From: Streptomyces sp. ISL-36
GTDB taxonomy: Bacteria; Actinomycetota; Actinomycetes; Streptomycetales; Streptomycetaceae
Length of the DNA: 64,000 nt
NCBI RefSeq assembly: GCF_018614205.1
Contig: NZ_JAGGOS010000015.1
Span: 75,676 to 139,675, forward strand
Reading direction: 5' to 3'
Shown here piece by piece: positions 21,011 to 31,986 of this stretch. Position 1 is the first letter of the stretch, and each line of letters starts with the position of its first letter. The notes beneath the pieces are model-generated. The model was not told the origin of the DNA. It was given only the letters and a program-made list of their open reading frames with translations, and ran no database searches. A program made the position numbers and the translations under genes.

Positions 21011-21083
21011 GGGGCTATAGCTCAGTTGGTAGAGCGCCTGCATGGCATGCAGGAGGTCAGGAGTTCAATTCTCCTTAGCTCCA
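21011..21083 (+). tRNA. tRNA-Ala (anticodon GGC), copy 1
   Basis: The 73-base cloverleaf has acceptor arms GGGGCTA and TAGCTCC, including the G3-U70 pair that marks alanine tRNAs. The anticodon arm is CCTGC-ATGGCAT-GCAGG, giving anticodon GGC, and the T arm contains GTTCAATTC. CCA is not encoded. A likely promoter is TTCACT (20945-20950), 18 bp, TAAAGT (20969-20974). The leader holds an inverted repeat GTTCTT / AAGAAC (20973-20978 with 21001-21006). Confidence 0.97.
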
Positions 21084-21090
21084 CGGTCAC

Positions 21091-25479: not shown

Positions 25480-25552
25480 GGGGCTATAGCTCAGTTGGTA
25501 GAGCGCCTGCATGGCATGCAGGAGGTCAGGAGTTCAATTCTCCTTAGCTCCA
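25480..25552 (+). tRNA. tRNA-Ala (anticodon GGC), copy 2
   Basis: This 73-base gene is identical to the copy at 21011-21083, again without encoded CCA. The flanks differ: there is no similarity beyond the gene on either side. A likely promoter is TTGGTG (25406-25411), 18 bp, TAATGT (25430-25435). Confidence 0.97.
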
Positions 25553-25560
25553 CAGAAGGC

Positions 25561-27323: not shown

Positions 27324-28702
27324 GGGCGGTCTCCTGCGGGAGTGGTCCACGGTTCACCCGCGGGGGGCGGGCTGGAGTACGTCGGCATGGGGGGCGAGGG
27401 GGCGGGCCAGTAGCCGGGACGGGGGGAGGGGTCGGGGACGACGGGAAGCTCCTCGGTCAGCGGGATGCGCTCGGCGAGCGGGATGTCGCCGTCGGTGCGG
27501 TGGGGGGTGGGGCCAGGGGCCGGGGCGGCGCGTGACACCGCGCGGTAGGCGGCGGAGAAGCCGGCGGAGCGGGGGGTGCCGACGGGAGCGGCGGAGCGGG
27601 GCCCGGTGTCGGCGTAGGCGGATCCGGCGGGCTCGCGAGGAGCGGCAGGAGCGGGGGGAGCGGCAGGAGCGGGCGGAGCGGGGAAGACGCCGGAGCCGGT
27701 GGAGAGGCTCGGTGCGACGGACGGGATGGGAGGGGTGGATGGGGTGGGTGGAGCGGGGGGCGTCGGCGCGTAGAGCCGCTGCTGGGGCAGCGGGGGAGCG
27801 GCGGCCAGGTGCGTCGGCGCGATCAGCGAGGATCGTGCGGTCGGGCGGTCCAGCCACTCGGCGGAGACCGTCGGGGCGTCGAGGCCGCCGGCGTCGCCCT
27901 CGACCCGTTCGGTCCACTCGGTCCGCTCGCCCGGGACGCCTCCGGTGGCGTCAGGGGTGCTTGGGCCGCCCGGGTCGGGCTCCGGGATCCGCGTGCGGCC
28001 CTCCAGCGACGCCAGGAGCCCCGCGAGCCGGTCGACCAGCGCGCGCTGGGTCGGGGCGGGCAGCAGCCGGAGCGAGACCGCGGCGGCGACCGCCGCCAGC
28101 GCCAGGCAGTACAGGACGACGACCCAGGTGGCGGGGGGCCGGCCCGCGTACAGGCCGTGGATCAGGGCGAAGCACCAGGCCGGGTACGCCAGCATGTGCA
28201 GCGGCCGCCAGCGCGCGGCGAACCGGCTCCGGCCGGCCAGCGTGCTGCGCAGCGCGCCGGTCGCCGCGGCGATGACCATCAGGAGCCCGGCGAGCGAGCC
28301 GAAGCCGATGAGGGCCGCCGTCCCTGTGAGGCCGAGGCCGAAGGGGATCAGCGCGCCGATAGGCCCGACATGGCCGAGGGAGACCTTGACGGTGCCGTGC
28401 AGCAGCAGGAAGCCGAGAGACGCGACGGCGGTGGCGCGGTGGATGCCCTGGGCGAGCAGCCGATGGCGCGGGGAGAGGAGCAGACGGTCGGTCGCCGTCA
28501 GACCCCAGGCGACCGACGCGGTCAGGGAGACCAGCGAGAGGACGCCGGTGGTGAAGTCGAGCGCGGCGCGGAAGCTGTCGCCACCGCCGAGGGCGAGCAG
28601 CGGAAGGATCACCACCGCCGCAACCGAAAGCCCGCCTCGAACCGGCCGGCTCATACCGGTTGGCTGGACGGAAGAAGAGCGTTTCCTGCGATGAGGGTTC
28701 AT
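27320..28702 (-). CDS. Ferric-reductase-like membrane haem protein
   Basis: The 460-residue protein has six membrane helices in its first 235 residues, then a Pro/Ala-rich tail of about 220 residues ending just before the NuoF-like gene. Two helices each hold a His pair 13-14 residues apart (GIHRATAVASLGFLLLHG and PLHMLAYPAWCFALIHG), the spacing used to bind two haems in ferric-reductase and NOX-type proteins. No FAD/NAD domain is fused to it, so it probably depends on the coupled NuoF-like subunit. The ATG at 28702 has GGAG upstream. The electron acceptor is unknown. Confidence 0.78.
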   Translation of the reverse strand: MNPHRRKRSSSVQPTGMSRPVRGGLSVAAVVILPLLALGGGDSFRAALDFTTGVLSLVSLTASVAWGLTATDRLLLSPRHRLLAQGIHRATAVASLGFLLLHGTVKVSLGHVGPIGALIPFGLGLTGTAALIGFGSLAGLLMVIAAATGALRSTLAGRSRFAARWRPLHMLAYPAWCFALIHGLYAGRPPATWVVVLYCLALAAVAAAVSLRLLPAPTQRALVDRLAGLLASLEGRTRIPEPDPGGPSTPDATGGVPGERTEWTERVEGDAGGLDAPTVSAEWLDRPTARSSLIAPTHLAAAPPLPQQRLYAPTPPAPPTPSTPPIPSVAPSLSTGSGVFPAPPAPAAPPAPAAPREPAGSAYADTGPRSAAPVGTPRSAGFSAAYRAVSRAAPAPGPTPHRTDGDIPLAERIPLTEELPVVPDPSPRPGYWPAPSPPMPTYSSPPPAGEPWTTPAGDRP

Positions 28703-28922
28703 GGGTGCGACTCCGAATGGTGCGGATAAGCGGTCCCGTTGCGCCGCATGCTAGGTCGCTGCATACCGGCCGGTAGGTGGTTTGCTCGTTTACGGGGCGC
28801 ATGGCGCCTAACTGACTCTGGGGTTGCCCTGGATAAGGGCGATACGCGGAGTAACCCGGGCGCCTCGGGCGTCCAGCGGGCCGGTGGGCGGAACGTCGGT
28901 GCGGCTCGCTCGGGCCCTGCGG

Positions 28923-28935
28923 TACCCTGACGCCA
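28923..28935 (+). promoter_or_regulatory. -10 element of the leuS leader transcript
   Basis: TACCCT (28923-28928) lies exactly six bases before the ATG of the leader peptide, so the transcript should start on that ATG. The 232-bp gap from 28703 to 28934 otherwise shows only promoter space for the divergent genes. Confidence 0.55.
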
Positions 28936-28973
28936 TGCGTGCCGTACGCCTTCTGCTTAGCGAGCCGCGCTGA
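28935..28973 (+). CDS. Leucine-rich leader peptide of leuS
   Basis: The 12-codon frame reads [12 protein letters not shown] and contains three consecutive leucine codons (CTT CTG CTT at 28950-28958). It is placed before an alternative RNA structure and a rho-independent terminator, 160 bp upstream of leuS. It is far too short for a standalone product; its role should be to sense charged tRNA-Leu through ribosome stalling. CTT is a rare leucine codon in this genome, which fits a sensor. No ribosome site is present, in line with leaderless translation. Confidence 0.75.
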
Positions 28974-29016
28974 TCAGTCCCGACGGATGAAAGATCCGGT
29001 CGGAATCGGCGCGGCG

Positions 29017-29042
29017 TCCCCTCCTGTGCGAGGGGATTTTTC
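29017..29042 (+). terminator. leuS attenuator terminator
   Basis: TCCCCTC (29017-29023) pairs with GAGGGGA (29030-29036) across a six-base loop, followed by five Ts (29037-29041). The competing structure is visible: GAAAGATCC (28989-28997) can pair with GGATTTTTC (29034-29042), removing the 3' arm and T tract. A 10-bp pairing of 28964-28973 (overlapping the leader stop) with 29006-29015 encloses a 9-bp hairpin at 28980-29003. Which state follows stalling is inferred, not proven. Confidence 0.75.
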
Positions 29043-29097
29043 ATTTCGTGGCATTTCGTGGCAGTGGGCAGAGACGATCGATGGAGCTTCAAGGATC

Positions 29098-31986
<2,889 letters not shown>

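Follow-up and report, generated by a model that had tools for sequence, protein, structure and literature searches.

Leucine Shortage Very Probably Raises Leucyl-tRNA Synthetase through a Leu-Codon Leader and Two Hairpins Upstream of leuS in Streptomyces sp. ISL-36, as Suggested by Comparative Analysis

How would a streptomycete that runs short of leucine come to make more leucyl-tRNA synthetase? The DNA directly upstream of leuS in the window (the whole 64,000-nucleotide stretch of Streptomyces sp. ISL-36 analyzed here) suggests an answer: the shortage very probably acts through a short leader ORF with a run of Leu codons and through the two hairpins that follow it, and we put the probability that this element is a ribosome-mediated transcription attenuator of leuS at roughly 85%. 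The leuS attenuator of the window is already known in print. Classical attenuators, consisting of leader peptide, antiterminator and terminator, were predicted in 2005 upstream of leuS of S. avermitilis and S. coelicolor (PMC1262725), and in 2021 LeuL2, transcribed leaderless with a hairpin and uridines behind it, was placed before leuS of S. lividans TK24 (PMC8079986). The window copy precedes the same gene and has the leaderless start and the hairpin with its U run, and the 12-amino-acid S. lividans peptide is identical; nothing was found in the accessible portions of these papers that sets the window copy apart, and the comparison here spans many more families. What is new is how broadly the element is conserved, the covariation of its stems, the fixed geometry of a CTT codon 5 nt from the stem P1, the re-coded relatives upstream of cimA and ilvB, and a search for a conserved antiterminator that found none. 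No report of leuS attenuation outside Streptomyces was recognized in literature searches; work by Lopatovskaya from 2010 (Mol Biol 44:128), said to deal with attenuation of aminoacyl-tRNA operons, may already describe it. A word search for leuS found no instance in the accessible text of PMC13236596, PMC4833913, PMC8269248, PMC3766115, PMC3896937, PMC4046766, PMC9413887, and PMC8914203.

The leader reads ATG CGT GCC GTA CGC CTT CTG CTT AGC GAG CCG CGC TGA, and its position and those of the other parts are collected in Table 1. Two CTT among its three Leu codons is unusual because, across 40 high-GC3 ORFs of the window, only 23 of the 1222 Leu codons (1.9%) are CTT. The initial annotation, made from the letters alone, had described most of these parts correctly: a 12-codon frame with three consecutive Leu codons, two of them CTT; TACCCT six bases before the leader ATG, where a leaderless-type start is supported; a terminator with five Ts at 29017-29041, TCCCCTCCTGTGCGAGGGGATTTTT; and a 10-bp pairing of 28964-28973 with 29006-29015 (GCCGCGCTGA / TCGGCGCGGC, nine Watson-Crick pairs and one G-U), which belongs to the 11-bp stem P1.

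Table 1. Features of the leuS upstream region, in window coordinates.
Feature	Coordinates	Strand	Remarks
-10 box TACCCT	28923..28928	+	leaderless-type promoter; ends 6 nt 5' of the leader ATG
Leader ORF	28935..28973	+	peptide identical to S. lividans LeuL2 (PMC8079986, Table 4)
Control codons CTT CTG CTT (Leu)	28950..28958	+	rare CTT kept in relatives
P1, 5' strand (region 1)	28964..28974	+	overlaps the last leader codons and stop; covaries with 29005-29015
P2	28980..29003	+	variable hairpin within the P1 loop; from the MFE fold; short or absent in many relatives
P1, 3' strand (region 2)	29005..29015	+	from the MFE fold and covariation
Intrinsic terminator T	29016..29041	+	stem 29016-29023 with 29030-29037; loop 29024-29029; T tract 29037-29041
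Candidate transient antiterminator	29009..29029	+	29009-29014 (P1 3' strand) with 29024-29029 (terminator loop)
leuS, leucyl-tRNA synthetase	29098..31986	+	putative regulated gene; NCBIfam TIGR00396 leuS_bact

In the window sequence T abuts P1 directly, without a gap. Terminator-like sites within 28800-29150 number three, against 0.2 in shuffles; two of them are T and the third is a small hairpin at 28937-28949. Judging by sequence and covariation together, a Rho-independent terminator sits between the leader and leuS. The start assigned to leuS is an in-frame ATG from which the frame runs open to the end given in Table 1, and the first 199 amino acids, a partial query that stays below the full-length cut-off, match leuS_bact at E 7.4e-55. 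The same frame is in fact open from 28939, far 5' of the leuS ATG and across the terminator loop, and automatic annotation could place the start too early. Two tRNA-Ala(GGC) genes also lie in the window, about 4.4 kb apart (21011-21084 and 25480-25553).

The strongest evidence against a chance origin of the element is its conservation. Of 582 relatives, the 80 best by LeuS similarity were chosen: 75 loci from Streptomyces, two from Streptantibioticus, one from Lentzea, and two named only Actinobacteria bacterium. An LLL leader is present in all 80, in line with the check for conserved Leu codons in leuS upstream regions that the initial annotation had proposed. With the window included, codon 8 is CTT at 81 of 81 loci and codon 6 is CTT at 74, CTC at six, and CTG at one; P1 and T hardly vary among the 80 relatives, and P2 is variable. 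In a regular-expression scan, 35 of 78 upstream regions read as having such a leader, and R1, a covariance model of P1 and T, later located elements in some of those that the scan had missed.

At E 0.01, R1 matched 173 of 393 genomes of the class, representing 64 of 124 genera (genomes used to build the model are included), and found no match in the other 220; the element is therefore widespread and not universal. A draw from the whole phylum gave matches in 20 of 246 genomes and 11 of 168 genera, and 14 of those 20 genomes belong to the class. Position was assessed in genomes whose leuS had been placed separately by protein search, the window's own match being excluded: 52 of the 54 matches listed share the strand of the LeuS match and sit 33-152 nt 5' of its start. 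In one of the two exceptions (G177) another leuS lies right behind the element (L261), and the other (G207) is of an Ile type. Among 60 fetched diverse loci, leuS was found downstream of 58 by tblastn and the signature YPSG..H.GH. No downstream gene was identified within the fetched kilobase at three further matches (L317-L319), and one match (G657, L323), with no clear leader or T tract, is seemingly false. One genome has two leuS genes of different type, each behind its own leader element (L314 and L315). Several families have a TGTCCGG-like motif after the T tract of the terminator (e.g., L262, L286, and L305).

Both P1 and T covary. In a 96-row alignment, which was fitted to R1 and is so biased towards the model, P1 has 97.2% of cells paired and both-side changes in 7 of 10 modelled pairs; P1 and T taken together show both-side changes in 13 of 18 pairs, and their double-change cells number 130 where shuffles give 23.6; of all their cells 95.9% pair, compared with 40.5-48.5% in slid controls. 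A MAFFT alignment of 41 elements (A1) agrees, with 95.0% paired versus 43-56% slid. The compensatory changes for which the initial annotation had proposed an alignment are strong in both stems. Five of the 96 rows (three antisense fragments and the Ile-type L283 and L284 of A2) were removed for the analyses of antitermination, mutual information, nucleation, and spacing, leaving 91. In the mutual-information scan the three top column pairs are all P1 or T pairs and the fourth, which joins columns 47 and 91 with 72% standard pairs, adjoins P1; no coherent third helix was seen among the 40 pairs listed. The CCCC arm of T begins 1-3 nt past P1 in 89 of 91 elements. Because P1 loops range from 3 to 47 nt over the same set, P2 seems optional, and we consider it unlikely to be an essential part.

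The leader itself was compared over 172 elements, whose rows are not all independent: the window, the 80 named loci, 34 loci with a leader found by regular expression, and 57 of the 60 diverse loci (L263, cut by a contig end, was left out together with L283 and L284, and L179, which is the same as L300, was counted once). Two or more consecutive Leu codons occur in 171 of the 172 (24 groups). The last of these codons is CTT in 161 of 171, and the base after it is A in 139. Between this last codon and P1 lie 5 nt in 170 of the 171 elements, of which 161 were counted by script and nine were read from rows where the script had caught an earlier GCC. Codon choice and spacing are the informative parts here, because the Leu run was used to select the first groups and shaped R1. 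Codons 2-5 differ between families, and the leader stop may fall within P1 (PR stop), immediately ahead of it (TAG CCGCG), or past its 5' strand; it is therefore the RNA and the codons that are kept, not the peptide end. A functional protein is an unlikely role for the leader peptide, as its C-terminal codons are absent where the leader stops before P1. The leader, its codons, the fixed geometry, P1, T, and the position before leuS thus all come out of the comparison itself.

A TAnnnT motif stands 6 or 7 nt 5' of the start codon in 170 of the 172 elements, and leaderless transcription of leuL2 has been reported in S. lividans (PMC8079986); from that spacing and that report, the leuS leader mRNA seems to have a leaderless start. 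Reference titles mention other leader peptides of this kind, namely leaderless polycysteine ORFs of mycobacteria (cited in PMC13236596) and a C. glutamicum ilvBNC leader peptide without a ribosome binding site (cited in PMC4046766). The hairpin at 28937-28949 has 5 bp and occupies the extreme 5' end of the leader mRNA (codons 1-5); it is apparently retained in most Streptomyces rows and may matter for leaderless initiation.

Do the codons have a bearing on the gene behind them? Two R1 matches that do not precede leuS, L283:101-200 (+) and L284:501-599 (-), belong to a related family with the same P1-T architecture, and their leaders carry Ile codons (LII and III). The gene behind both is the citramalate synthase gene cimA (TIGR00977, E 1e-54 and 6e-51 from partial sequences), which encodes an entry enzyme to isoleucine; no published account of an Ile-codon leader before cimA was found in a literature search. 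L320 and L321 come from a family outside the class; their leaders end in ...LLIT and ...LVLIT, followed by P1 and a terminator, and the gene is ilvB, for acetolactate synthase. Leader ends with Leu/Val/Ile codons were likewise noted at L317-L319. With Ile codons before cimA and Leu, Val, and Ile codons before ilvB, the codons therefore follow the gene, and these sister elements are the best comparative argument that the codons would be the sensor. The L320 and L321 matches also recall the ilvB leader attenuators of Actinobacteria, short ORFs with branched-chain amino acid codons and a terminator, which carry Val/Leu/Ile codons, unlike the leuS leader.

R1 has just one other match at E up to 0.01 in this genome: the leuA leader MRFGLLLLSCRGEGL, published as LeuL1, which lies outside the window (L252:1501-1593, equal to contig C67:150103-150195; E 0.006) and scores just 25.6 bits. 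Like the leuS leader, this LEU element of Actinobacteria is Leu-rich and has CTTAGC followed by GCCGCGG; its spacer is 4 nt versus 5 in the leuS leader. The published descriptions give the leuA leader a pseudoknot and a pairing to the leuA Shine-Dalgarno sequence (PMC1262725) and no typical terminator (PMC8079986), unlike the leuS element, in which a terminator-like hairpin is present. On these likenesses the leuS attenuator may share its ancestry with the LEU element. The same shared sequence is seen at L316, before another leuA. No ilvB leader is among the three matches in the genome at E up to 10, and the third of these (L253, E 4) lies inside a coding-like stretch and is seemingly due to chance.

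The classical attenuators (trp, his, and leu of E. coli; trp of S. venezuelae and C. glutamicum) combine a control-codon leader peptide, a stem at the leader stop, and an intrinsic terminator. The leuS element resembles them in its Leu-codon run, its covarying protector stem (1:2) over the leader stop, and its terminator, and differs from them in that the leader ORF is leaderless and conservation is seen for P1 and T only, the search for a conserved antiterminator having found none. From these parts we infer stalling, read-through, and the leucine response. Transcription would start at the leader ATG, giving a leaderless mRNA. With Leu-tRNA plentiful, the ribosome would get to the stop codon and leave, P1 and the adjoining T would form, and most transcripts would end near 29041. 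When charged tRNA-Leu is scarce, the ribosome would wait at the CTT codons, the last of which is 5 nt before P1; a ribosome footprint of the usual size should there take in roughly the first half of the P1 5' strand. Region 2 would stay open and interfere with the nucleation of T, and, with nucleation disturbed, RNA polymerase would read through into leuS. We tentatively suggest, as a possibility that we rate well below an even chance, that the decisive stall site is the conserved rare CTT and that it acts within an old actinobacterial module, which consists only of a leaderless codon-sensor ORF, one stem 5 nt past the control codon, and an abutting terminator, with no dedicated antiterminator, and which has been re-coded with Leu for leuS, Ile for cimA, and Val/Leu/Ile for ilvB. 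In ribosome profiling of S. griseus, the high-pausing Leu codons named in the accessible part of the report are TTA and TTG, not CTT (PMC8914203).

Antitermination is the weakest link of the classical reading. Pairing tests, shuffles, and the mutual-information scan, covering 41-91 elements, found no conserved antiterminator. The best candidate in Streptomyces is a possible, predicted transient pairing between the terminator loop and the 3' strand of P1 (Table 1): with the P1 5' strand hidden, it is part of the MFE structure of nascent RNA that extends to leader positions 95-99, and T has formed by 101. Its cells are 93.9% paired in A1 and never show both-side changes. In 75 of 91 elements at least four such pairs can form, but loops shuffled at the same composition are equally stable, and over the 91 elements this pairing is not stronger than with shuffled loops (mean z by family +0.4, 25 groups). 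Hiding the P1 5' strand lowers terminator nucleation in the Streptomyces group from 0.59 to 0.22 when 4 nt of the 3' arm have emerged; across the 91 elements at that length, nucleation falls by more than 0.3 in 38 and rises in 10. By 6 nt the effect is nearly lost (4 lower, 2 higher), and once about 6 nt of the 3' arm have emerged equilibrium folds yield T with or without P1. The folding effects being small and short-lived, any switch is therefore probably kinetic.

This leaves room for a mechanism with two helices and no dedicated antiterminator, in which P1 abuts and promotes T, by stacking or by preventing region 2 from misfolding with T, and a stalled ribosome simply opens P1. Such a compact design is in keeping with the near-constant P1-T spacing, with P1 loops as short as 3 nt, with the failure to find a conserved alternative pairing, and with the drop in nucleation at 4 nt; set against it are the small size of that drop and its near disappearance by 6 nt; T looks competent alone, and equilibrium folding is in any case a poor stand-in for kinetics. 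We regard it as a real but minority possibility.

Another way to read the locus is as a constitutive short leader, a leaderless ORF with a terminator that serves basal damping, a small RNA, or ribosome recycling, and not leucine sensing. Codon changes in the S. coelicolor ilvB leader were without effect and results for leuA were ambiguous, as told in PMC1262725, and leader codons therefore need not be a sensor. Against this, the Leu codons, including the rare CTT, are kept while their neighbours vary, and the cimA and ilvB sister elements carry Ile and Val/Leu/Ile codons; a purely constitutive role consequently seems improbable.

Still less can be said for a classical three-region attenuator built on the antiterminator that the initial annotation had proposed, 28989-28997 with 29034-29042. 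The pairing is present in the window (GAAAGATCC / GGATTTTTC, eight Watson-Crick pairs and one G-U) and even extends to 11 bp at -10.8 kcal/mol, but it is not conserved as an antiterminator: among the 41 aligned elements the longer form (28987-28997/29034-29044) has 48.5% of cells paired versus 41-48% in slid controls, with no excess of covariation over shuffles. It also draws on the P2 region, which is variable or short, and on the T tract, which is transcribed after the terminator hairpin, such that it could form only once the terminator had. Nor does the proposed step from a 10-bp stem that cannot form to read-through follow from folding, since hiding the P1 5' strand leaves the complete terminator in the MFE structure. 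We consider this version very unlikely indeed. Finally, a T-box or other tRNA- or metabolite-binding riboswitch, although T-boxes are reported before ileS in Actinobacteria (PMC1262725), is barely conceivable here, as only some 80 nt of transcript precede T and these begin with an ORF, and Rfam 15 gave no family match in 27500-30500 at E up to 1 and none in six relatives at the gathering score.

The ribosome-mediated attenuator that we favor would then be a compact and widespread case of ribosome-mediated control, seemingly exerted from a leaderless mRNA. Its regular succession of leader, codon, spacer, P1, and T is suited to clean tests of attenuation without an obvious antiterminator, and the element also offers a test of why the rare CTT persists at the putative stall site.
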